Under the pieces are notes generated by a model that was not told the origin of the DNA, did not search any database, and saw only the letters and a list, made by a program, of their open reading frames with translations. DNA of 33,769 nt from Chloroflexi bacterium OHK40 (GTDB taxonomy: Bacteria; Chloroflexota; Chloroflexia; Chloroflexales; Chloroflexaceae): contig SFCB01000003.1 of NCBI GenBank assembly GCA_004367505.1, forward strand, positions 1 through 33,769, read 5' to 3'. A program made the position numbers and the translations under genes. Positions 445 through 18,012 of this stretch are shown in pieces (positions within the stretch are counted from its first letter, which is position 1; each line of letters opens with the position of its first letter).

Positions 445-1422
445 TCAGCGCTTCCGTGCCAGCGTCAGCCCGTCGCCGAGCGGCAGCAGGCTCAGGTCGA
501 TCCGTTCGTCGGCGTGGAGCCTGGCGTTCAGGGCGCGCAGCGCCTGCGTGTCGGCGTCCTGCGCCGCATCGTCGGCCACTGCGCCGCCCCAGAGCACGTT
601 GTCGATCGCGATCAGCCCGCCGGGGCGCACGAGCTGGAGGCATTGCTCGTAGTAGCCGGCGTAGCCCTCCTTGTCGGCGTCGATGAAGGCAAGGTCGAAG
701 CTCCCGGCCTGTCCTTCGGCCAGCAGCGCCGCCAGCGTCCCGGCGGCGGGGGCCAGGCGCAGGTCGATCCTTGCCGCCACGCCCGCCGCCTGCCAGTAGC
801 GTTGCCCGATGCTGGTGTAGGCTTCGCTCACGTCGCAGGCGATCAACTTCCCGTCCTCTGGCAGCGCCAGCGCCATCCACAGGGCCGAGTAGCCGGTGAA
901 CGTGCCGATCTCCAGCACGCGCCGGGCGCCGAGCAGCTTCAGCAAGAGTGCCAGGAACTGCCCCTGCTCCGGCCCGATCTGCATGCCGCCCTCCTCCATC
1001 TGCGCGGTCTCCTCGCGCAAGCGGCGCAGCAGCTCCGGCTCGCGCACCGATGTGGCGAGCAGGTAGCGGTAGAGCGCCGCGCTCAGCCCCAGGTTGCGCC
1101 CGCCGTCGTCGTCCTCCTCGGTCGGTTCAGGAAGGCCAAGGTTGGCCCGCGCCCGCCCGATCAGCGCGATCAGCGCCGGGCGGAACTGGTTCGGCTTGTC
1201 GAGCGGCGCATCGAACGGCACCCGCAGTGGCTCTTCGCGGTCGTCGGCCCGCAGCACAAGCTCGATGCCGTCCCGGTCGGCATGCCGCAGTTCGGCCTCC
1301 CGCGCCCAACGCTGGCCGGCCAGGCCATGGGCCAGGTCGAGCATCTCCCGGCGGTGGTCCTCGTTGATGTGCGCTACCACGCCGCTGACAAACTTCTCGG
1401 GAAGCGTGCGATCGTCGCTCAT
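445..1422 (-). CDS. DUF2470 domain fused to class I O-methyltransferase
   Basis: A 325-residue protein. Residues about 5-85 resemble DUF2470 (HINEDH motif, then D..G.EL), a domain known from HugZ-type haem-degrading proteins. Residues about 115-325 are a caffeoyl-CoA/catechol-type SAM-dependent O-methyltransferase: VLEIGTFTGYSALWMA is the SAM motif, FIDADKEGY and AIDNVLW carry the acidic and Asn residues that bind the divalent metal in this family, and the end fits the family fold. The start ATG overlaps the stop of the upstream binding-protein gene (ATGA), so the two are probably translationally coupled. Position in an iron-uptake operon suggests action on a catecholate siderophore or an iron-linked cofactor, but the substrate cannot be read from the sequence. 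The fusion itself is the odd feature. Confidence 0.85.
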   Translation of the reverse strand: MSDDRTLPEKFVSGVVAHINEDHRREMLDLAHGLAGQRWAREAELRHADRDGIELVLRADDREEPLRVPFDAPLDKPNQFRPALIALIGRARANLGLPEPTEEDDDGGRNLGLSAALYRYLLATSVREPELLRRLREETAQMEEGGMQIGPEQGQFLALLLKLLGARRVLEIGTFTGYSALWMALALPEDGKLIACDVSEAYTSIGQRYWQAAGVAARIDLRLAPAAGTLAALLAEGQAGSFDLAFIDADKEGYAGYYEQCLQLVRPGGLIAIDNVLWGGAVADDAAQDADTQALRALNARLHADERIDLSLLPLGDGLTLARKR

Positions 1423-3404
1423 TGCCGTTTCAGCGCCTCCTCGATGTCGCCCAGTACCTGCAGCGCCGCCAGCGGCCCGCCGATGCTCGTCCAGACCGCG
1501 CCGTCCACCTCGACGACTCGCGCCTGTTGCACGACGTCGAGTTGCTGGAACAGCGGGTTTGCGCGGGCCGTCTCCAGCGCGGTCGCGCCCTCTGGGTTGA
1601 GTGTGCCAAGGAACAGCCAGTCGCTGTCGAGCAGCTCAAGTTGCTCCAGGCTGAGCGGGTCGGTGTGCGCGCCGTGAGAGCCGGCCAGTTCTACGATCTC
1701 CTCCGGGCGGGTGAAACCGATATCGGCGAGTACGCGGCTCGAGAAGGTGGTCGGCATCATCACCACCGGGCCCTGCGGCATCCAGCGCGCTACGTTCGCC
1801 TCGGCGCCATCGGCGGGCAAGAGCGCCTTCACTGCGGTGACCCGTTCGTCATACTCGGCGAGAAACGCCTCGGCTTCTGCCGCGCGGTTCAGCGCGCCCG
1901 CGATACTGGTGAAGGCGGTTTTCCAGTCGTCGCTCGGCTTGTAGGTTGCCACCACCGGCGCGATCGCGCTCAGCTCCGGCAGCAGCCCTTCGATCTGTGG
2001 GATTAGCGACCCGGCCAGGATCAGGTCGGGCTCCAGCGCGACGATCGCCTCCAGCGAGGGCTCGGCAAGTGTGCCGACCGACACAACGTCGCTGGCTTTG
2101 TCGCCCAGGTAGAGCGGCAGGCCGGCCTGGCCGCGCCCGTTGACCGCGCCTACTGGGGTGAGGCCCAGCGCCAGCGCGCTGTCGAGATCCAGCTCGCTCA
2201 GTGCCACCACGCGCTGCGGGTTCGCCGGCACCGTCACCGTCGCGCCGCGGGCGTCGGTGATCGTGCGTGTCGCGTCCCCCGCTGACTGCGCCGCGGTGCT
2301 GGCGGAACCGCCGGTCGTCGGGTCGCCGTCCACTGCGGCCGCCAGCTGCGGTACCAGTTCCGCGAACACGATCGGCAGGCTCAGCACGCTGCTGTAAACC
2401 AGGGCCGGGCCGGCGAGCTCGCCCGCGCCGCTGGTATCCAGCCAGATCACCCGCCCTTCCCGCACCGCCCTGAGCTGCTGGTAGATCGGGTTGGCCTCGA
2501 TCTGCGGGCGCTGCTCCGGGGTGGCCGTCCAGAGCAGCACATCGGTGTCCAGCAGGTCGAGCCGCTCGCCGCTGATCGTGCCGTAGAAGGCGTCGCCGGC
2601 GATCGCCTCCAGCTCACCGGGCAACACGAAGCCGAGCGATGTCAGGACCCGCTGGCGCTCGTGCTGGGGGCCAGAGAAGAAGAACTGCCCATCGCTGGCC
2701 GGGGCGGCGATGGCGGCGGTGGCTCCCTGAAATTCCGGGTGCTGCTGGCGCAACTCGGCGAAGCGGTCCTCGGTGGCTGCGACAAGCGCCTCGGCCTCGG
2801 CGGCGCGCCCGAGCGCCTGGCCGATCACGCGGGTCTGCTCCTGCCAGGGCACGCCGAAGTCGACATACGCATCAGACTGGGCCAGGGTAGGGGCGATCTG
2901 GCTCAGCGTTGCGTACTCATCCTCGGTGATGCCCGCCGAGACAGCGATGATCAGGTCGGGCTGGAGCGCGGCGATCGCCTCGATATTCAGCTCGCCGAAG
3001 GGCATGTTGAGGATCGCGGGCGCCTCACCGGTTACCCGGTCGGCCGCCCATGGCCAGACGGCCTGCGTGTCGTCGCCGAAGAAGTAGCGCACCGCCACCG
3101 GCTGCACGCCGAGGGCCAGGATGGGGTCCTGGTCGGTGTAGCCGAGCGCAATCACCCGCTGCGGCGCACTCGGGATCGTGGTGTTGCCATATTTGTGTTC
3201 GATTGTCAGAGGAAAGGTGGTGGACGCTGCGGTCGGCGCGGGAGTCGGGGCAACGGGAGCACTGGTGGGAGCAACGCTAGGAGCATCTGTCGGTGCCAGA
3301 GTGGTCAGCGCGGGAGCGGCGGTCGGTGCGGGAGCGGCGGGTGTTCCGCCGCAGGCGGCGAGCAGAGCGAGCAGGGCGAACAACAGCATGGTTCGGGGGA
3401 GCAT
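1419..3404 (-). CDS. Lipoprotein with two tandem FecB/BtuF-type binding domains
   Basis: A 661-residue secreted lipoprotein: hydrophobic signal, lipobox LAAC with Cys18, and an Ala/Pro/Thr linker to about residue 60. Two complete type III periplasmic-binding domains follow (about 62-355 and 380-660). Each begins with the family pattern (PQRVIALGYTDQDPILALGV and PQRVVALSELDLDSALALGL) and carries the later IEAIAALQPDLII / LEAIVALEPDLIL element. Single-domain relatives are about 300-350 residues, so this is a head-to-tail fusion. ATG 3404 has an ideal AAGGAGG seven bases upstream (3412-3418). It is the first large gene of the left minus-strand operon and should capture ferric siderophore or a related ligand outside the membrane. 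Possible partner permeases are at 18043-21060. Confidence 0.9.
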   Translation of the reverse strand: MLPRTMLLFALLALLAACGGTPAAPAPTAAPALTTLAPTDAPSVAPTSAPVAPTPAPTAASTTFPLTIEHKYGNTTIPSAPQRVIALGYTDQDPILALGVQPVAVRYFFGDDTQAVWPWAADRVTGEAPAILNMPFGELNIEAIAALQPDLIIAVSAGITEDEYATLSQIAPTLAQSDAYVDFGVPWQEQTRVIGQALGRAAEAEALVAATEDRFAELRQQHPEFQGATAAIAAPASDGQFFFSGPQHERQRVLTSLGFVLPGELEAIAGDAFYGTISGERLDLLDTDVLLWTATPEQRPQIEANPIYQQLRAVREGRVIWLDTSGAGELAGPALVYSSVLSLPIVFAELVPQLAAAVDGDPTTGGSASTAAQSAGDATRTITDARGATVTVPANPQRVVALSELDLDSALALGLTPVGAVNGRGQAGLPLYLGDKASDVVSVGTLAEPSLEAIVALEPDLILAGSLIPQIEGLLPELSAIAPVVATYKPSDDWKTAFTSIAGALNRAAEAEAFLAEYDERVTAVKALLPADGAEANVARWMPQGPVVMMPTTFSSRVLADIGFTRPEEIVELAGSHGAHTDPLSLEQLELLDSDWLFLGTLNPEGATALETARANPLFQQLDVVQQARVVEVDGAVWTSIGGPLAALQVLGDIEEALKRQ

Positions 3405-8387: not shown

Positions 8388-8972
8388 GTGAACCAGATCC
8401 AGGCCGCGTTCCGGTTTACCGATAGCGACCTTGCCGCTAACCGCCAGGGCTGGGCGACCGAGCAGCAGGTGCGCCGGCTCGCGCAGGGCTCTGGCTGCGG
8501 CTTTGCGATCGCTGGCGCTACGGCGGCTGGGATGTTCCTGTTCGCCTTCGTTGCCGGGCTCGCGGTGGTCGCCGGCGCATTCGTGTTCGGGTGGTCAGCC
8601 GGTTCTGGTGGCATAAGCGCCATGCGGCCATCATCGGCGATCGGCATCCTGGCGCCATTCGTGCTGGGTCTGAGCCTCCTCGGCTTCCTCCTCCTGCTGG
8701 CAGTGCGTATACGCCGCGACCGGAGCGAGCGGCGCGTTGCGCGTTGTAGCGGCCCATTCCGCATCGAAAGCCGATTCCTGGAGACCGACTCGCTCTCCAA
8801 AACACTGCATGTCGATGGGCGGCGCTTCAAGATCAATCCGTTCCAATCACGCGCGTTGCGTCCGTATCAGGGGAGACGCATCACGGTGTATTACTTTCCA
8901 CATGCCCGGGAGATTGCGTCGATCGAGCTAGTGGGTCACCACGGTGAGTGCGCTGGAGGGCGCACTGGTTGA
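8388..8972 (+). CDS. Two-TM membrane protein, function unknown
   Basis: A 194-residue protein not recognised by family. It starts at GTG 8388 with GAGGGAGA (8378-8385) just upstream, 33 bases after the previous gene. Residues about 35-63 and 82-104 are hydrophobic membrane segments rich in Gly/Ala/Leu; the second is followed by a basic RIRRDRSERR stretch. The soluble C-terminal part (about 110-194) contains short strands such as LHVDGRRFKINPFQSRAL and RRITVYYFPHAREIASIEL. It is probably a membrane component of the same gene group. Confidence 0.65.
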   Translation: MNQIQAAFRFTDSDLAANRQGWATEQQVRRLAQGSGCGFAIAGATAAGMFLFAFVAGLAVVAGAFVFGWSAGSGGISAMRPSSAIGILAPFVLGLSLLGFLLLLAVRIRRDRSERRVARCSGPFRIESRFLETDSLSKTLHVDGRRFKINPFQSRALRPYQGRRITVYYFPHAREIASIELVGHHGECAGGRTG

Positions 8973-9087
8973 GACACCCCGATGGGGCGTCTTGACCCCG
9001 CAGGATCAGGAGGGTGGCTGGGAGCACAGGCCGCTGGCAGACGCGCGGGAGGTGCACGAGCCCGGGATGTCGCTGTTTATCGCGTGA
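8944..9087 (+). CDS. Possible small ORF overlapping the previous gene (47 aa)
   Basis: A GTG-started frame of 47 residues begins 29 bases before the end of the two-TM protein gene. It contains WGVLTPQDQEGGWEHRPLAD and ends PGMSLFIA. No clear ribosome binding site is seen and no family is recognised. It may be a small downstream partner or chance. The rest of the 8973-9159 gap shows nothing convincing. Confidence 0.2.
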   Translation: MSALEGALVETPRWGVLTPQDQEGGWEHRPLADAREVHEPGMSLFIA

Positions 9088-9159
9088 GGCGGAGCTAACG
9101 AGCTGACAGGGTTGGCTTCGCCTGCGCGGAGCACGGGCGAGCTCGAACGTTTGAGTGCT

Positions 9160-9678
9160 TCAGGCGTTCACATGTTTCAGGAGCGTTATCTTTTTCTCCA
9201 CCGGATGCACGTGAACCACCGGCTGGCCCTGTTGCCGGGCATAGGCAACCACATCGCCTGTGCCGCCCAGCGCGACAGCCGGCAGGCCGTTCCAGACGGC
9301 GATCAGCAGGTCGCTCGAGTCGACCAGCCAGTGTCCCAACGCCATGTAGGCCGTGTTTGAGCGCTCCACGAACGGCAGCCGGTGCACGTGGCGGCTGCGC
9401 GCGACCAGTTCGTAAAAACGTTTCCGCTGCGGGCCAGGCGCAAAGTTTTCCGCGATATCGTCGCACGCCAGGCACGCCTCCAGGGGGATGCCGCAGGCCA
9501 GGGCTGTCTCGGCGAAGATCGTGTCGGCGCCGGCGGCAAGGCCGGAGAGGGCCACGATGCCCCCCGGAGCCGCCCGCTGCATCCGCGCGAGAATGGCGCG
9601 CAACGCGCGCTCCACAAAGCGCGTGGCCGAGTCGTCGCCAAGCCGGCAATGGCCGGTCACTGCTACAATACATGCCAT
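9160..9678 (-). CDS. SLOG-superfamily nucleotide-binding protein
   Basis: A 172-residue single-domain Rossmann-like protein of the SLOG (SMF/DprA-LOG) superfamily. It begins VAVTGHCRL (residues about 5-13), continues with ALSGLAAGADTIFAETAL (about 43-60) and closes with DLLIAVWNGLPAVALGGTGDVV, all hallmarks of the superfamily. SLOG domains bind nucleotide-derived ligands, including NAD-derived signals made by TIR enzymes in Thoeris. The gene is divergent from the TIR gene, whose start is 156 bases away. ATG 9678 is the first ATG before the conserved strand; a long upstream extension in this frame is antisense to the TIR gene and is rejected. It could be the sensor or immunity partner of the TIR protein. 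That is an inference from adjacency. Confidence 0.75.
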   Translation of the reverse strand: MACIVAVTGHCRLGDDSATRFVERALRAILARMQRAAPGGIVALSGLAAGADTIFAETALACGIPLEACLACDDIAENFAPGPQRKRFYELVARSRHVHRLPFVERSNTAYMALGHWLVDSSDLLIAVWNGLPAVALGGTGDVVAYARQQGQPVVHVHPVEKKITLLKHVNA

Positions 9679-9738
9679 GCCGGGTACCCACAGTGCGCCC
9701 GCAGTTGGGAGGCTGAGAGACGATCGGGTGCGTTCACT

Positions 9739-9763
9739 ACCACAAATACACCACAGGTTGACG
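9739..9763. promoter_or_regulatory. Direct repeat and -35-like element between SLOG and TIR genes
   Basis: ACCACA occurs twice (9739-9744 and 9750-9755) with an 11-base period, one helical turn, directly before TTGACG (9758-9763), which could be the -35 element of the TIR gene. I cannot find a matching -10 hexamer with confidence. The arrangement suggests a regulator bound between the divergent genes. Confidence 0.3.
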
Positions 9764-9834
9764 CCAGATTGTTTGGACATGCTGCTGAATTTTCTGCGCC
9801 CTGGCCCTCCACGCCGAGCGGATCGGGGGCGCGC

Positions 9835-11736
9835 ATGACCCCTCCCTGCGTGTTTCTGTCCTATGCCCGCAGCGATCTGGCCTATGCACGCACCCTGCAC
9901 GATCGCCTGGAAGCGGCGCGGCTCACGGTCTGGTGGGATCAGGAGGAGCCGCCGGGGGAAGATTGGACGGAGCAGCTCCTCGCCTGGCTGGAGGGTGCCC
10001 ACGCGGTGGTTGTGATCGTCTCGCGCGACAGCGCCGTTGCGCCCTCGGTGAAGAATGAGGTTCTCCTGGCCCAGGACTATCATCGTCGTGTGATCCCGGT
10101 GCTGCTCGAGCAGGCCCGTGGCGGCCTCTGGCTGCTGATCCGCTCGCTGCAATGGATCGATGCCCGCGATGGCCGCGATCCGGTGCCCGCGCTCCTGGAG
10201 GCCCTGCGCGCTGCGCCCCCTCCCGCACTCCCCGACCCGACCGACGAGGCCCTCGCCATGGATGACGTGATGGCGCGGTATGCTCCGCCCCCGGCCAGCC
10301 TGGTGCAGGCGCAGGTGACGATTACGCTGCCCGGTGACATTCGCGATTTTAGCGACCGCGAACGGTCGGGGCTCATCCAGATCATTGCACGGTTTGCCAG
10401 GCTGCGCCCCGACCAGATCAAGATTGTGCGCGTCGAGGCCGGTAGCGTCCTTGTGACGCTGCAGTTGCCCGAGTCGAGCGCGCGCTGGCTCGTTACGCTC
10501 TACGAGCGCCAGGCGCCGCTGATCGACCTGCTCGACATCCATGCCGTGCGTGACCTGCGGGTGCTGCCCGCGCCGAACAGCGCGGTGGAGCCCCCTGCGG
10601 CGGCGCCAGAGGTTGTGGAGTGGCTCGGGGCATGGCTGCGGGGATGGACCCGCCGCTCCGTCCTCGCCGGCGCGCTGGCTGCCCTGTTGCTGGTTGCTGC
10701 GCTGACGATGACCCTGCGCGCTCCGGCGCCGCCAGATGGAACGCTGGTCGGCATGGTCGTGGCGGTCCAGGGGACGCTTGAGCTGCGGAGTGTGGGCTGG
10801 AATGCCTTCGTCCCCGTAGCGGCTGGCGCCCATCTCCAGGCCGGCGATCGGCTGCGGCTGGAGCCGGGTGCGCAGGCCCGCGTGGTGTGCGCTGATGGCA
10901 CCCTCATCGAGGTGCAGGCGGGGAATGCGCCGGTTCCGTGCCAATCGCAGGCCGAGCGGCTCTTCGATATCGCCAGGGTACCCTGGGCGAATGCGGTGCT
11001 CAGCGCGGGCGATGCTGCGTTGCCTCGGGTTATCATGCCCCGTGCGACCGCCCTGCTGACGACCATGCCGGCAGTTCGCTGGACCGCTGTGGATGGCACG
11101 GATAGCTACACCGTGATCCTGTACCGCGAGGGCGAGGAGCTCTGGCGCGAAACGGCCCAGGACACTACGACGCTGCCCTACCCCGCCGATCAGCCGCCGC
11201 TGGAGCCCGGTCCGATCTATCGCTTTGCCGTTACCGTCGAGGATGGGCCAGAGGAGATCGCCCAGGGTTCTGGTGTGCAGGTGCTTGATGCGCAACAGGG
11301 GCAGGCCATCCGCGCGGAGGCCCGGCAGATCGAACAGCTCGACGTGGACGACGCGATCAGATTCCTGCTCCTGGCGAACCTGTACGCCAGCCACGGGCTG
11401 TACGCCGAGGCGCTCGTACTGCTCGAGTCGCCCGAAGACCCATCTGCGCAGCCGGCGCTGTTCCAACTGCGCGGCGATATCTACCTGGCGGTGGGGCTGC
11501 CGGAGCTCGCCATTGCCCCCTACACCCGGGCGCTCGAAGCTGCGGCGCGAGCGGGTGACCAGCCCGCGCAGGCACGGGCCAACCGGATGCTCGGGACCGT
11601 CTACAGCCGGCTCGGCGGCGAGATCAACCGGGCGCGGGCCGTGGCGCACTTCCAGCAGGCGCTCCGGTTCGCCGAGGAGGTCGGAGATGTCGAGGCCCAG
11701 AAGGAGTTGCGCCAGCTTCTGGCCGATCTGGCCTGA
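9835..11736 (+). CDS. TIR protein with effector-associated-like, TM, FecR-like and TPR regions
   Basis: A 633-residue multidomain protein. Residues 4-125 form a TIR domain (VFLSYARSD, then WWDQEEPPG, and SVKNEVLLAQ with Glu75 where TIR NADases carry the catalytic Glu). Residues about 155-245 (VQAQVTITLPGDIRDFS, IKIVRVEAGSVLVTLQLPE) resemble an effector-associated adaptor found in conflict-system proteins; I recall the pattern but cannot verify it. A single TM lies at about 276-294. A FecR-like domain (about 300-370), a fibronectin-III-like segment (RVIMPRATALLTTMPAVRWTAV onward) and C-terminal TPRs (about 500-633) follow, presumably outside the cytoplasm. ATG 9835 is placed directly before the TIR domain; upstream codons of the frame are low complexity. 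The CHAT gene begins at once after the stop. Confidence 0.85.
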   Translation: MTPPCVFLSYARSDLAYARTLHDRLEAARLTVWWDQEEPPGEDWTEQLLAWLEGAHAVVVIVSRDSAVAPSVKNEVLLAQDYHRRVIPVLLEQARGGLWLLIRSLQWIDARDGRDPVPALLEALRAAPPPALPDPTDEALAMDDVMARYAPPPASLVQAQVTITLPGDIRDFSDRERSGLIQIIARFARLRPDQIKIVRVEAGSVLVTLQLPESSARWLVTLYERQAPLIDLLDIHAVRDLRVLPAPNSAVEPPAAAPEVVEWLGAWLRGWTRRSVLAGALAALLLVAALTMTLRAPAPPDGTLVGMVVAVQGTLELRSVGWNAFVPVAAGAHLQAGDRLRLEPGAQARVVCADGTLIEVQAGNAPVPCQSQAERLFDIARVPWANAVLSAGDAALPRVIMPRATALLTTMPAVRWTAVDGTDSYTVILYREGEELWRETAQDTTTLPYPADQPPLEPGPIYRFAVTVEDGPEEIAQGSGVQVLDAQQGQAIRAEARQIEQLDVDDAIRFLLLANLYASHGLYAEALVLLESPEDPSAQPALFQLRGDIYLAVGLPELAIAPYTRALEAAARAGDQPAQARANRMLGTVYSRLGGEINRARAVAHFQQALRFAEEVGDVEAQKELRQLLADLA

Positions 11737-11737
11737 G

Positions 11738-14647
11738 TTGCGGCTGGCGCTGTGCAGCCTGCTGCTCCTGCTCACCCTGCTGCCGGGCGTGCCGACCCTG
11801 GCCCCTGTCTACGCGGGAATGTCTACGCGCCAGAACGACCCGGCGGCACAGTGTGCTGAGGGCATGCAGCTTGCCGAAGCGGGCCGGACGGATGCGGCGC
11901 TGCCGCTGCTGGCGGCCGGGGTCGCCGGTGCAACGTCGGGCGTCTTCGACGCCCCCGAACTGCCTGGCGCCTGTGCCGCGACCCTCGGCAGGCTCCTGCA
12001 GGACCAGGGACGCCTCGACGACGCGCTTGCGGCCTACGCGACCGCGCTTCAGTTCTTTGAGACACAACCCAACGACGCGGCGACGCTCGATGTACTCGAG
12101 CGCATCGGCGCCGCCTATGCCGGCCTGGGCCAGACGATCGAGGCGCTGGAGGCCTACCGCCGCGCCCGCGACCTCGCCCGCGCGTTGGAGGACCGCCCAC
12201 GCGAGATGGTCGCCCTCGCCAACATGTTTCGTCTGTTCCATGAACAGCGACACTGGCGGGAAGCGCTGGAGCTCACCCTGCAGATGCAGCAGGTCGGGCG
12301 CGCGATCACCGAAGAAACGGGCGACGGGCTCTTCGAGAGCATCGGGCTCCTTTTCACCATGGTTGTGCTGGTGGGCCAGTGGCGCTGCACCGAGGCGCCC
12401 GTAGTTGGTCAGCAGGCCCTGGACCTTGCCCGTGACGATGAACGGTTCAATGTGGCCGGGACGGTCGCCTTTAGCAACGGCCAGTGTGCCTTGATCCAGC
12501 AGCGCTACGACGATGCGCTGGAGTTCTACCGCCAGGCCGTGGTGTACAGCCGCGCTCTGGGCGATCACGACATCGAACTGCTCGCCCTCGACGGCGTGGC
12601 CAGGGTCCACCGGACGCACCAGCGCTACGACGAGGCCCTGGATGTTATCCGGCTGGCGCTGCAGCGGGCACGTGCACTCGATGACCGCGACCGGGAGGCC
12701 GATCTCCTCGGTGCGATGGGGAGTATCTACAGCGACCAGGCGCGCTACGATCAGGCGCTAAACCTCTCCCGGCAGGCCCTGCAGATCGCGCGCGACCGGC
12801 GCGACCGCTTCGGCGAAGCGTTTCAACTGCTGCACATGGGCGAAATGTACCGCCACCAGCGTCGCTACGATGAAGCGCTCGCGACCCACCAGCGCGCCTT
12901 GCAGATCGCCCGCGAGATGGGTTTTCGGGAACTTGAGGCCTTCGCGCTGACCTATCTCGGCGAGGATTACGCCGCGCAGCAGCGCCTCGATGAGGCCCTC
13001 GACGCCGGGCTGCGGGCCCTGGATGTGTACGATACGGTGCGCACCACCGCCGGCAGTGATGCCGCGCGCATCGGGATCGTTGAACAAAACTTCTTCGCCT
13101 ACGACCGCCCCGTCTGGCTGGCCCATCAACTGGGCCGGGACGACCTGGCCTTTGCGATCAGCGAGCGGGGGCGCGCTCGCGCCTTCCTCGATGGCCTGGC
13201 CACCGGCACGATCGAGCTCTCGGACGACACCGCCAACCAGCTCTTTCAGCGCGAGCGTGAGACGGCGCTCACCTGGCTGTTGGCACAGGATGCGCTCAAC
13301 CAGGCCCGCGCCCGGCGCTCGTCCGACCGCGCGCGGCTGGCCGAGCTTGAGGCCCGGCTCGAAGCGGCGGAAGCCGCCCACGCCGCCGCCCTGCGCGCCA
13401 TCGACCAGCGCGGTGGCCAGCTGGCGGCCCTGGTGCCGGGGCGCGCGCAGGCGCCGCTGAGCCGCGTGGAGGTGCAGGCGCTACTGCCACCCCGCACCAC
13501 GCTGGTGTCGTACTGGCTCGGCGGCGACCAGACGCTGGCATTTGTGCTCAGCGCCGATCAGTTCCAGACGATCGCGCTGCCAGTCGGGGTTGCCGAGGTG
13601 ACGCAGCACGTCCGGCAACTGCGCAGTGTGTTGATCTCGGCTCCGCCCACGCAACGGATCAGCCAGCCGTCAGCGGCCGTGTGGCTTCACCGGCAGCTGA
13701 TCGCGCCGCTGCGCCCCCACCTGCGCACCTCGCGACTGCTCATCGTTCCCCACGCCTCGCTGCACCACCTGCCCTTCGCCGCGCTTGGCGACGAGCGCGG
13801 GCGGATGCTGCTGGACGAGTTTACGCTGACCTTGCTGCCCAGCGCCAGCACGCTGCGGTTTCTCGAACGCCCGGCATCCGCGCCGGTTGCTGCGCCCCGG
13901 GCGCTGGTGCTGGCCAATGCCGACTACACCCTGCCCAGCGCCGCCGCCGAGGCGCAGGCCATCGCCGATCTGTTCGATAGCCAGCTCCTCCTGGGCAGCC
14001 AGGCCACCGAGCAGGCGCTGCGCGCACACGCCGGGCAGGCCGGCATCCTGCACATCGCCACCCATGGCGAGTACCTCCCCGATGCGCCGCTGGCCTCCTA
14101 CCTCACCCTGGCGCCAGGCTCGCCTGAGCACACACCCGCCGCCACCCGTGGCAGCGACGAGCCCAGCGGCGCGCGGCTGGAGGTCGCCGACGTCTACGGG
14201 CTGGATCTGCGGCAGACCGACCTGGTGGTATTGAGCGCCTGCCAGAGCAACCTGAGCGCCTGGACCTCCGGCGACGACATGGTCGGGCTGACGCGCGCAT
14301 TCCTGTATGCCGGGGCGTCAAGCGTTGTCGCCTCGCTGTGGCTGGTGCCCGACAAGGCAACCAGCCAGTTGATGGAGCGCTTCTACACCCATCTGCGGGC
14401 TGGTAGTGGCAAAGCCGAGGCTCTGCAGAAAGCCCAGCAGGAGATCCGGGCGCGCTACCCCAGCCCCTACTACTGGGCCGGCTTCGTGCTGCTGGGCGAG
14501 GGGGAGGGCGCGCTCGTCGCTGTACCATGGTGGCAGCGCCTCCCCTGGTGGGCCTGGCCGGTGGCGCTGAGCCTGGCGATCGTCGGAATAGGGGGCGCCT
14601 GGAGACAACGAAACCGATGGCTGCGGGACGATCCGCGCAAGGGGTAG
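11738..14647 (+). CDS. Secreted/anchored TPR-CHAT caspase-like protease
   Basis: About 969 residues if TTG 11738 is the start. That start begins one base after the TIR gene stop and gives a proper signal peptide (LCSLLLLLTLLPGVPTLAPVYAG); ATG 11819 would remove it. TPRs fill about residues 40-470 with repeated QRYDEALD / RALQIAR elements, and a coiled coil follows near 510-560. The CHAT domain is at about 600-905: His776 (ILHIATHGEYLP) and Cys835 (VVLSACQSN) form the caspase-type dyad, followed by GLTRAFLYAGASSVVASLW. A TM helix (about 936-955) ends in a basic tail RQRNRWLRDDPRKG. Signal peptide plus this tail predict a protease domain outside the cytoplasm, which is unusual. Probable partner or target: the extracytoplasmic part of the TIR protein. 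Confidence 0.9.
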   Translation: MRLALCSLLLLLTLLPGVPTLAPVYAGMSTRQNDPAAQCAEGMQLAEAGRTDAALPLLAAGVAGATSGVFDAPELPGACAATLGRLLQDQGRLDDALAAYATALQFFETQPNDAATLDVLERIGAAYAGLGQTIEALEAYRRARDLARALEDRPREMVALANMFRLFHEQRHWREALELTLQMQQVGRAITEETGDGLFESIGLLFTMVVLVGQWRCTEAPVVGQQALDLARDDERFNVAGTVAFSNGQCALIQQRYDDALEFYRQAVVYSRALGDHDIELLALDGVARVHRTHQRYDEALDVIRLALQRARALDDRDREADLLGAMGSIYSDQARYDQALNLSRQALQIARDRRDRFGEAFQLLHMGEMYRHQRRYDEALATHQRALQIAREMGFRELEAFALTYLGEDYAAQQRLDEALDAGLRALDVYDTVRTTAGSDAARIGIVEQNFFAYDRPVWLAHQLGRDDLAFAISERGRARAFLDGLATGTIELSDDTANQLFQRERETALTWLLAQDALNQARARRSSDRARLAELEARLEAAEAAHAAALRAIDQRGGQLAALVPGRAQAPLSRVEVQALLPPRTTLVSYWLGGDQTLAFVLSADQFQTIALPVGVAEVTQHVRQLRSVLISAPPTQRISQPSAAVWLHRQLIAPLRPHLRTSRLLIVPHASLHHLPFAALGDERGRMLLDEFTLTLLPSASTLRFLERPASAPVAAPRALVLANADYTLPSAAAEAQAIADLFDSQLLLGSQATEQALRAHAGQAGILHIATHGEYLPDAPLASYLTLAPGSPEHTPAATRGSDEPSGARLEVADVYGLDLRQTDLVVLSACQSNLSAWTSGDDMVGLTRAFLYAGASSVVASLWLVPDKATSQLMERFYTHLRAGSGKAEALQKAQQEIRARYPSPYYWAGFVLLGEGEGALVAVPWWQRLPWWAWPVALSLAIVGIGGAWRQRNRWLRDDPRKG

Positions 14648-14706: not shown

Positions 14707-16992
14707 ATGCGAGCAGCCATGTCATCTGTCGCCAACAAGGAGTTCGGCCACCTGGTGCGCGGCGCAGTCAACGCCATCGCCGATTTCGAGGGCCAGAACG
14801 TCTCGATCATCGAGGCCGAGTTAAGCGAGCGCATCTGCATGGCCCCGACGGCGATTCACCGCTTTAAGGCCGGGTACGTGCCCCGCGACCCCCGAATCAT
14901 CGAGGTCCTGGCCGAGGCGGGCGTCCGGCGCGCCTACCTGAACCGCGCCTGGCTGCAGCGCTTTTTGCGCGCCGCGCATTACCACGATGCCGCCGCGCTG
15001 ATCGAGCGTCTCATCCCGCCGGAATCGGCGCCGTCGGCATTGCCCGAGCGCAGCTACCACAACCTGCCACCCCTGACCACCAGCCACTTCGTGCTACGGG
15101 CCGAACCCTCCACCGCCGTGTTCGAAGGACTGCGCCAGCGCTGCGCCGTGGTGGTGATCGTCAGCCTGGGGGGCATGGGGAAGACCAGCCTGGCCCGTGA
15201 AGTGGCCGCCCACTGCCTGCGCCCGCCCGAGAGCGGCGAGCACGAGCCGTGCTTCGATGCGGCGGTGTGGATCAGCGACAAAGACACCCCCGGCTCCACC
15301 TCGCTCACCCGGCTGCTCGACGAGATCGCCTACACCCTCGACTATCCTGGCCTGACCCGCCTGGAGCAGACGCACAAGCGCCGCGAGATCGAGCACCTGC
15401 TCAAGCGGCGGCGCATCTTGCTGATCGTCGACAACTTCGAGACCATCACCGATGCCGCGCTACTGCCCTGGCTTTTGCGTCTGCCCGAGCCGAGTAAGGC
15501 TCTGGTCACGACGCGCGAATACCGCAAGGAATTTCAACAGGGCGCCTGGCTGGTCGAGCTTGGTGGCATGGCCGAGACCGAGGCCCGCCAGCTGATCGCG
15601 GAGCGTTCGCGCCAGCTGAAGCTCCAGCTTCCTCCCGACGAGGCCACCATCCAGCAGCTGATCGGCGTGACCGGCGGCAACCCCAAAGCCATAGAAGTGG
15701 TCCTCGGCCTGGCGAAAAGCACGGGGCACGCACTGGCGCAGGCTATCGAGCAACTGCGCAGCGGGCCGGACCACCTGTTCGCCGATCTGTTCACCCTGAG
15801 CTGGTCGCTGCTTGGTCAGGACGCCCAGCAGATCCTGCTCGCCACCACGTTGTTCCCCACCAGTGTCGACAGCTCCGCCCTCGCCGAGGTGGCTGGTCTG
15901 AGCGAGCCGGTCTTCTTCGCCGCCGTGCGGCAGCTCACGGAGTTGGCCCTGCTCGATACCGAGCAACTCGATGACCCGCAGCAGCCGGCGCGCGCGCCCA
16001 TCCGCCGTGCGATCCACCCATTGACACGCGCCTTCCTCGAACGGCAGCAGGCCGTCCAGGCAGCCTTCCTCGGGCATGCGCGCGAGCGCTGGCTCGCCTG
16101 GGCCGTGCGCACTGCGGCCCGTGTCGGCTATGCCGTCGAGGATCTCGCCCGGCTCGAACCGCTGGATCGCGAGGAGCCCACGCTCTTCGCGGCGCTCACG
16201 TGGGCATTCGCGCACAACCGGGATGCCGAGGTGATCCAGATCGCCAGGGGGATTGAGTTCTACTACTACGTGCGCGCTCAGTGGAGCAAGAAGCTATACC
16301 TGCACCAGCTCTACATCGAGGCCGCGCGCCGGCTGGGCGATATCGGCGAGGAGATTGTGGCGCTCACCTTGCACATCCAGTTGCTCAGCCGGCAGGGTAA
16401 CGCGGCGGCAGCCGCAGCCTACGTGTCGCGCCTGCGCGAATGCGTGCGCAGCCATCCACCGCGCGGCGAACGCTTCTTTCACGTGGAGCACGCCTCGGGG
16501 CTCTACCAGCTCGCCGAGGGGCACGCGGCAGCGGCAGAGGGCTGCTGGCGCCGCGTGCTCGATCCAGCACAGGCGCATGGCCTCCCCGCGCACATGGTGA
16601 TTGGCGCCCAACACTGGCTGGCCGTGTGCCTCGCGCAGCAGGGCAAGCATGCCGAGGCGCGCAGCCTGTACGAGTCCGCGCTCACACAGGCGCGACAGCA
16701 CGGCTACCAGCGCATGGTTGCGCGCAACCAGTTGCAGCTAGCCCTGCTCGACCTGAGTGATGGGGAAGTGGCTCGTGCGATGGGGCGCCTGGAGGAGAGC
16801 CGCGCTCACACCAGAGAGCGTGACTGGGAGCAGCGCGCGCGCATCCAGCAGGCGCTGGCGCACGTCCACCTGCGCACCGGCAACCGCGCCGTGGCGCGCG
16901 CGGCGCTACTTGAGGCCATCGATCTCTTCGACCGGATGGGGCTGGCCGTCGAGAGCCAGGCCGCGCGCACCGCGATGATCGAGGCGTCGTAG
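14707..16992 (+). CDS. STAND (NB-ARC) ATPase with N-terminal HTH-like domain and TPRs
   Basis: A 761-residue STAND-class signalling ATPase. Residues about 10-90 look like a helix-turn-helix adaptor (SERICMAPTAIHRFKAGYVP). The NB-ARC module runs about 140-400: Walker A LGGMGKTSLA with Lys159, Walker B LLIVDNFETI with Asp242, ALVTTREYRK as the sensor, and VTGGNPKAIEVVLGL as the GLPL-type motif. A winged-helix-like part follows to about 510, then TPRs to the end (AEARSLYESALTQARQ, ARMGRLEESRAHTRERDW type repeats). Such proteins are inactive when ADP-bound and oligomerise on ligand sensing. No effector domain is attached, so it may act with the CHAT and TIR genes just upstream. ATG 14707 is the likely start (ATG 14719 is also possible). 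Confidence 0.85.
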   Translation: MRAAMSSVANKEFGHLVRGAVNAIADFEGQNVSIIEAELSERICMAPTAIHRFKAGYVPRDPRIIEVLAEAGVRRAYLNRAWLQRFLRAAHYHDAAALIERLIPPESAPSALPERSYHNLPPLTTSHFVLRAEPSTAVFEGLRQRCAVVVIVSLGGMGKTSLAREVAAHCLRPPESGEHEPCFDAAVWISDKDTPGSTSLTRLLDEIAYTLDYPGLTRLEQTHKRREIEHLLKRRRILLIVDNFETITDAALLPWLLRLPEPSKALVTTREYRKEFQQGAWLVELGGMAETEARQLIAERSRQLKLQLPPDEATIQQLIGVTGGNPKAIEVVLGLAKSTGHALAQAIEQLRSGPDHLFADLFTLSWSLLGQDAQQILLATTLFPTSVDSSALAEVAGLSEPVFFAAVRQLTELALLDTEQLDDPQQPARAPIRRAIHPLTRAFLERQQAVQAAFLGHARERWLAWAVRTAARVGYAVEDLARLEPLDREEPTLFAALTWAFAHNRDAEVIQIARGIEFYYYVRAQWSKKLYLHQLYIEAARRLGDIGEEIVALTLHIQLLSRQGNAAAAAAYVSRLRECVRSHPPRGERFFHVEHASGLYQLAEGHAAAAEGCWRRVLDPAQAHGLPAHMVIGAQHWLAVCLAQQGKHAEARSLYESALTQARQHGYQRMVARNQLQLALLDLSDGEVARAMGRLEESRAHTRERDWEQRARIQQALAHVHLRTGNRAVARAALLEAIDLFDRMGLAVESQAARTAMIEAS

Positions 16993-17112: not shown

Positions 17113-18012
17113 CTATCCAGCCACATCCGCGCGGCGCCCCTCGCGCAGCAGCGCATCGCCGGCCAAGCGGCCCTGCGGTGACACGGCTGCATCGGGCGCC
17201 GGCGCCCACTTCCCCGCCGGGGGCGCTGGCTCGGCCAGACCGTAGGCGATGCAGAGTGGCACCCCGGAGCGTGGGTCGGGCACAACCGCGCCATCCACCC
17301 CGAACACCTCGCGCAGCAGGGCGGGGGTGACGACCTCGCCCGGCGCGCCTGCTGCCACTACCCCGCCCGCCTTCAGCGCGATCAGGTGGCTGGCGTGGCG
17401 CGTGGCGTGGTTCAGGTCGTGGACCACCATCACGATCGTGCGCGCCTCCTCGCGGTTCAGCCGCTCGAGCAGCTGCAACACCTCGATCTGGTGCGACAGG
17501 TCGAGAAAGGTGGTCGGCTCATCGAGCAGGATCACCGCCGTCTCCTGCGCAAGCGTCATGGCGATCCAGGCCCTCTGGCGCTGCCCGCCCGAGAGCGCGT
17601 CCACCGGGCGCTCGGCCAGTTCGGCCATGCCGGTCAGCTCTAGCGCCTTCACTACGGCCGTCTCGTCATCGGCGGCCCACTGCTGGAACCAGCGCTGGTG
17701 CGGGTAGCGCCCCTGGGCGACGAGCTCGCGCACCGTGAGCCCTTCGGGCGCCACCGGGCTCTGAGGCAGAATGCCGAGTTGCTTCGCCAGTTCGCGGGTG
17801 GGCAACTGATGAATGGCCTTGCCGTCCAGGTAGGCCGCCCCGCCCCGGGGCGCCAGCAGGCGGGCCAGGCCGCGGAGCAGGGTGCTCTTGCCGCAGCCGT
17901 TCGGTCCCACCAGGGCCGTGATCTGCCCACTCGGAATCGTCACGTCCATCCCGCGAATGATCACCGCCTGGTCGTAGGCCAGGGTGAGGTTCTGTGTAGC
18001 GAGTGTGCTCAT
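17113..18012 (-). CDS. ABC transporter ATPase, FecE/FhuC type (iron siderophore import)
   Basis: A 299-residue ATP-binding subunit: Walker [10 protein letters not shown], signature [10 protein letters not shown], Walker B VILLDEP, then the switch histidine in VVHDLNHA. Sequence order and the [20 protein letters not shown] segment are typical of iron(III)-siderophore importer ATPases. The C-terminal 45 residues (after IAYGLAEP) are a proline/alanine-rich tail beyond the usual family end. It lies 30 bases after the second permease gene and ends the right iron operon, converging with the STAND gene. The 120-base gap 16993-17112 shows no obvious terminator. Confidence 0.93.

Follow-up and report, generated by a model that had tools for sequence, protein, structure and literature searches.

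A TPR-CHAT protein predicted to be exported and membrane-anchored, encoded beside a membrane-spanning TIR protein

The window analyzed here is a complete contig (C25, 33,769 nucleotides) from the 6.9-Mb draft genome of Chloroflexi bacterium OHK40. It encodes a TPR-CHAT protein whose secretion is well supported by prediction, with a C-terminal helix that would hold it at the outer side of the cytoplasmic membrane (Table 1). Judged from its CHAT sequence, the protein is a member of a clade of exported TPR-CHATs. Its gene lies in a four-gene locus, and we favor, at a probability of roughly 0.4, a switch across the membrane, by which the outer TPR-CHAT protein would act through the outer half of the neighboring TIR protein and so control the TIR domain inside the cell.

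Table 1 Features of the four-gene locus in the window, with the evidence for each.
Feature	Coordinates	Strand	Evidence
TPR-CHAT protein of 986 aa, counted from ATG 11687 (probable start); predicted to be exported and anchored in the membrane by its C-terminus	11687..14647	+	Pfam, AF2 model, orthologue G016:C302
Shine-Dalgarno-like GAGGAGG, 6-nt spacer to ATG 11687	11674..11680	+	Sequence; not clearly kept in G016
Signal peptide, predicted cleavage between VYA and G, after residue 43	11687..11815	+	Sequence; VLA before G in G016
TPR solenoid, residues 52-505, then linker helices	11840..13201	+	Pfam TPR_12 2.1e-33; AF2 model
CHAT domain; His793 codon 14063-14065, Cys852 codon 14240-14242	13676..14500	+	PF12770 9.6e-72; motif alignment
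C-terminal transmembrane helix WWAWPVALSLAIVGIGGAW, then basic tail RQRNRWLRDDPRKG	14546..14602	+	Octanol scan; AF2 helix 956-981; kept in G016, G019
TIR (predicted inside), weak TRADD-N-like stretch, TM 10660-10716, ectodomain with TPRs (predicted outside)	9835..11736	+	TIR_2 3.8e-23; TM scan; 61% orthologue in G016
NB-ARC ATPase with TPRs, cytoplasmic in appearance	14719..16992	+	NB-ARC 1.5e-9; same place in G016
SLOG/YAcAr-like protein, divergent to TIR gene	9160..9678	-	PF10686 8.4e-5, below cut-off; same place in G016

Domains, start codon and membrane anchor

The open reading frame at 11738-14647 is indeed open, as a preliminary description of this DNA had stated. Its CHAT match scores 242 bits against a Pfam cut-off of 24, and the catalytic motifs are intact, with His793 in ATHG and Cys852 in LSAC. 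When homologues of four further phyla are aligned with the protein, both residues are invariant among six distant homologues, and the catalytic motif is also present in an orthologue from a different genus (G016:C302). The AlphaFold (AF2) model, built with five distant homologues and having a mean pLDDT of 76.8, places a leader helix at residues 15-30 ahead of the TPR solenoid, the CHAT fold at roughly 600-937 and one more helix at the C-terminus. A phmmer search with the whole protein returned TPR matches only, as did a full-length profile; a profile of the CHAT domain by itself was needed. PADLOC gave weak or generic matches only.

The G016 orthologue is 65% and 52% identical to the window protein in two pieces, and 65% identical over the CHAT domain. 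It comes from a 71%-complete draft genome in which the CHAT and TIR genes carry one frameshift each. A further CHAT-TM orthologue (L080, G019:C18, reverse complement 8630-10615) is 5'-truncated, contains a TAG and near-identical TPR repeats, and is possibly decaying; with its truncation and its TAG, its N-terminus was left out of the leader comparison below.

The protein probably starts at ATG 11687, in frame 17 codons upstream of TTG 11738. The latter had been taken as the start in the preliminary description, and we rejected it as the likeliest one, as the position reads CTG in G016 while the ATG is kept there. In G016, that ATG and a TTG two codons upstream are the only normal starts that spare the whole hydrophobic core of the leader. 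The ATG sits within the TIR gene, with which the first 17 CHAT codons overlap. Conservation of the ATG alone is weak evidence, because the substitutions that separate the window from G016 in the overlap, which number 3, 7 and 0 at the successive CHAT codon positions, track the TIR frame; judging by this pattern, the ATG in G016 might have been carried along by conservation of the TIR protein. Export is predicted from 11687 and from 11738 alike, and no export is predicted from ATG 11819.

The N-terminus does resemble a signal peptide, as had been proposed. Both the window and G016 have a charged start, a long hydrophobic core and a V-x-A before G, the leaders being MSRPRRSCASFWPIWPELRLALCSLLLLLTLLPGVPTLAPVYA and MPKRKANCASSWPIWHKLWPVVLVLAVLVTFVPTATVLA, respectively, each followed by G. 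These calls were made with a hydropathy rule of our own, which looks for a charged start and an uncharged hydrophobic core. In the part of the leader that does not overlap the TIR gene, the residues differ at 18 of 26 codons between window and G016, and the stretch nevertheless stays hydrophobic, its best 12-mer scoring 2.77 and 3.38, respectively, on the Kyte-Doolittle scale. Signal peptides evolve in just this manner, with residues changing and hydrophobicity staying. Among the 2454 stretches of 27 residues in the forward frames of the window, only 12 are as hydrophobic as the leader core, and at the leader site itself the CHAT frame alone of the three reaches that value. The hydrophobic core of the leader is not a product of chance.

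At the other end of the protein, an octanol scan and the last helix of the AF2 model agree with the single transmembrane helix and basic tail that had been described. The best C-terminal 19-mer has an octanol-scale value of -11.4 kcal/mol in the window and -14.5 and -21.1 kcal/mol in the two orthologues, so that the helix, which has a basic end in G016 and G019 as well, is stronger in both than in the window. With the leader cleaved, the protein would be anchored with its C-terminus inside; with the leader uncleaved, the CHAT domain would lie outside all the same. The earlier prediction that the TPR and CHAT parts lie outside is strengthened by the G016 orthologue, in which a signal peptide and a transmembrane tail are present as well, and by the CHAT tree described below.

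Export across the CHAT family

To our knowledge, the bacterial CHAT proteases that have been characterized act in the cytoplasm, and the preliminary description had considered an external CHAT protein unusual. That view stands within the protein's own lineage and fails across the whole CHAT family, where there is a clade in which export is the norm and where the solved structure of DdvA, described below, offers a precedent. Our sample comprised 41 related genomes, more genomes of the phylum and five named genomes. By the hydropathy rule, the window copy is the sole exported-looking CHAT protein of its own genome. The rule flagged 3 of 57 other Chloroflexota-type TPR-CHATs, none of them convincing; the flags in L094, L096 and L099 were rejected as false positives that reflect internal TPR helices. 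All other sampled TPR-CHATs of the protein's own bacterial family look cytoplasmic. Among cyanobacterial TPR-CHATs, at least 42 of 54 were flagged with a signal peptide, and several of the remaining 12 have visible leaders. Signal peptides are likewise found in Bacteroidetes CHATs and in one Pirellulaceae protein.

We placed 119 CHAT domains in a maximum-likelihood tree, which was midpoint-rooted, took most of its cyanobacterial sequences from a single Calothrix genome and included five loci picked by likeness to the window protein. The tree groups the window, G016 and G019 sequences with TPR-CHATs of cyanobacteria, planctomycetes and Bacteroidetes (96/94) and sets the window protein apart from the cytoplasmic-looking paralogues of its own bacterial family. 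The leaderless cyanobacterial L243 falls among the cytoplasmic set, and a long-branched, leaderless Chloroflexota sequence (L130) falls in the exported set. The exported TPR-CHATs of the three other groups share with the window protein both the clade and the succession of signal peptide, TPR array and CHAT domain. Nearly all of them end at the CHAT domain, to which the window clade adds a transmembrane anchor.

Several members of the family outside the Chloroflexota deserve mention in their own right. A CHAT protein from a Bacteroidetes MAG (L248, 1898-4630) likewise combines a signal peptide with a C-terminal transmembrane helix, in a different phylum. The genome of Calothrix NIES-22 (G379, L204-L253) yields 78 CHAT matches, the majority of them with signal peptides and several in tandem, including a run of four (L220) and a filamentous-haemagglutinin-like protein of 2953 aa with CHAT at its end (L251). 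A literature search for secreted CHAT proteins found no study, which does not in itself show that such studies are absent. As far as that search could find, a large CHAT clade built for export has hardly been studied.

These data bear on the possibility that the protein is instead a cytoplasmic, tail-anchored CHAT protein that starts at ATG 11819 and is switched by a nucleotide made by the TIR protein, as in type IV Thoeris. Such a start codon exists in the window, and the adjacency of a TIR gene to a caspase-like gene recalls that system (PMC12847820). However, G016 has no start codon at the corresponding place and yet keeps the signal sequence, on which grounds we rejected this start. The protein moreover belongs to an exported clade, and its hydrophobic leader would have no meaning in a cytoplasmic protein. 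We regard this possibility as very improbable.

The four-gene locus and its TIR partner

The order SLOG, TIR-TM-ectodomain-TPR, exported TPR-CHAT-TM and NB-ARC-TPR is common to the window and G016, which represent two genera, at 61-65% identity (61% for the TIR protein), and the CHAT and TIR genes overlap or nearly do so. Only these two complete four-gene loci are known. A draw of 350 genomes of the phylum yielded no further genome with the TIR protein in its full form, and the four-gene set is therefore rare. Beyond it, flanking genes at 17113-18012 and 1419-3404, minus strand, encode a siderophore-type ABC ATPase (by sequence reading) and a Peripla_BP_2 protein.

Because an RR pair precedes its transmembrane segment, the TIR domain is predicted to lie inside and the rest of the TIR protein outside. 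A TRADD-like_N match between TIR and membrane (residues 182-226, 0.0047, below cut-off) could mark an adaptor domain. The preliminary description had spoken of a FecR half, and there is no Pfam FecR match at an E-value of 0.5, so the term denotes a resemblance only. A single-sequence AF2 model of the TIR protein, with a pLDDT of 48.5, was too poor for use. Two other genomes (G003 and G012) encode stand-alone members of the family to which the outer half belongs; these are predicted lipoproteins, with leaders ending VSGC and TGC, a form that fits an outside location. In G003, a locus on the minus strand (L163, G003:C167, 5225-9136 and 9498-10787) sets an ectodomain-TPR lipoprotein beside NACHT-FGE and Macro-domain proteins, and is possibly another surface-to-STAND set.

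Prediction and conservation support the domains, the topology, the clade and the gene order in two genera; we infer from here on proteolytic activity, the partnership with the TIR protein, the signal's direction and a role in defense. Under the transmembrane switch, the outer TPR-CHAT protein would recognize an event at the surface and then cleave or bind the outer half of the TIR protein. The state of the TIR domain inside would change in turn, giving an NAD-dependent signal or NAD depletion, and the NB-ARC protein may serve as a cytoplasmic amplifier. As had been suggested, the TIR protein's outer half makes a plausible CHAT substrate, because it too is predicted to lie outside and because it occurs alone as a lipoprotein in the two other genomes. 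The fuller version, in which a surface-anchored caspase-like protease would cleave a TIR receptor in its outer half and thereby switch the TIR enzyme and the NB-ARC protein inside, so that the whole set would sense phage or rivals at the surface, we consider doubtful.

It is also possible, though on balance unlikely, that the exported TPR-CHAT protein acts alone at the surface, in surface-protein processing, adhesion or sensing, as its cyanobacterial homologues may, and that its TIR and NB-ARC neighbors are incidental. Exported TPR-CHATs are indeed numerous, as the single Calothrix genome illustrates, with no obvious TIR partners among the loci listed, and the G019 copy has no TIR-ectodomain gene as its partner. 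The conservation of the four-gene order in two genera, where the CHAT and TIR genes overlap or nearly do so, argues against a role apart from the TIR protein. The pairing of an exported CHAT protein with an NB-ARC ATPase and with a TIR protein that spans the membrane is less ordinary than export itself, and it makes the locus a testable case of an outer-face caspase-like protein that perhaps controls immune-type enzymes on the inner face.

Comparison with known systems

The first Foldseek matches of the model are DdvA (8rw5, 8rot), followed by Csx29 and separase, and VIA-align ranks the Craspase TPR-CHAT first (Z up to 32), with DdvA at a Z of 23.7. The CHAT-only profile reaches DdvA by sequence as well (2.3e-9, residues 834-968). 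DdvA is a transmembrane anti-sigma factor of solved structure, according to the entry title, with an apparent transmembrane segment at about 70-92, read from the alignment. Because its anti-sigma part is N-terminal, its CHAT domain should lie outside, and the likeness to the window protein would extend from the TPR and CHAT fold to a CHAT domain beyond a membrane helix, the topology of the window protein being predicted. The two differ in that the membrane helix of DdvA is N-terminal, whereas the window protein has a C-terminal anchor and would have its inner partner in a separate TIR protein. Neither Pfam nor the AF2 model gives an N-terminal cytoplasmic anti-sigma domain in the window chain, where the signal peptide alone precedes the TPRs.

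With an anti-sigma factor as the top structural neighbor by Foldseek, and with a TIR ectodomain that is FecR-like in look, the outside CHAT domain might instead be a non-proteolytic sensor or ligand-binding domain of a transmembrane regulator, as could hold for DdvA. The invariance of His793 and Cys852 in the six distant homologues, and their retention in G016, make such a domain improbable. The transmembrane switch that we favor allows for cleavage as well as binding.

Csx29, of the type III-E CRISPR Craspase, has the TPR-CHAT fold in common with the window protein; it works in the cytoplasm as part of an RNA-guided complex, whereas the window protein is predicted to be outside. The NCBIfam Csx29 model gives the window protein 42 bits, against a cut-off of 300.

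In type IV Thoeris, N7-cADPR made by a TIR protein activates a caspase-like protease (PMC12847820). There, the TIR protein and the protease have to share one side of the membrane, and the members of the window pair are predicted to be on opposite sides. Type IV Thoeris thus fits the window poorly, since a nucleotide switch needs both components on one side and export of the CHAT protein is predicted.

The STAND/AP-ATPase conflict systems, which use caspase and TIR effectors, bring together NB-ARC-TPR, TIR, caspase-like and possible TRADD-N modules, as the window locus does (PMC8195603). The window locus departs from these systems in that its CHAT domain is predicted to lie outside and its TIR protein to span the membrane.
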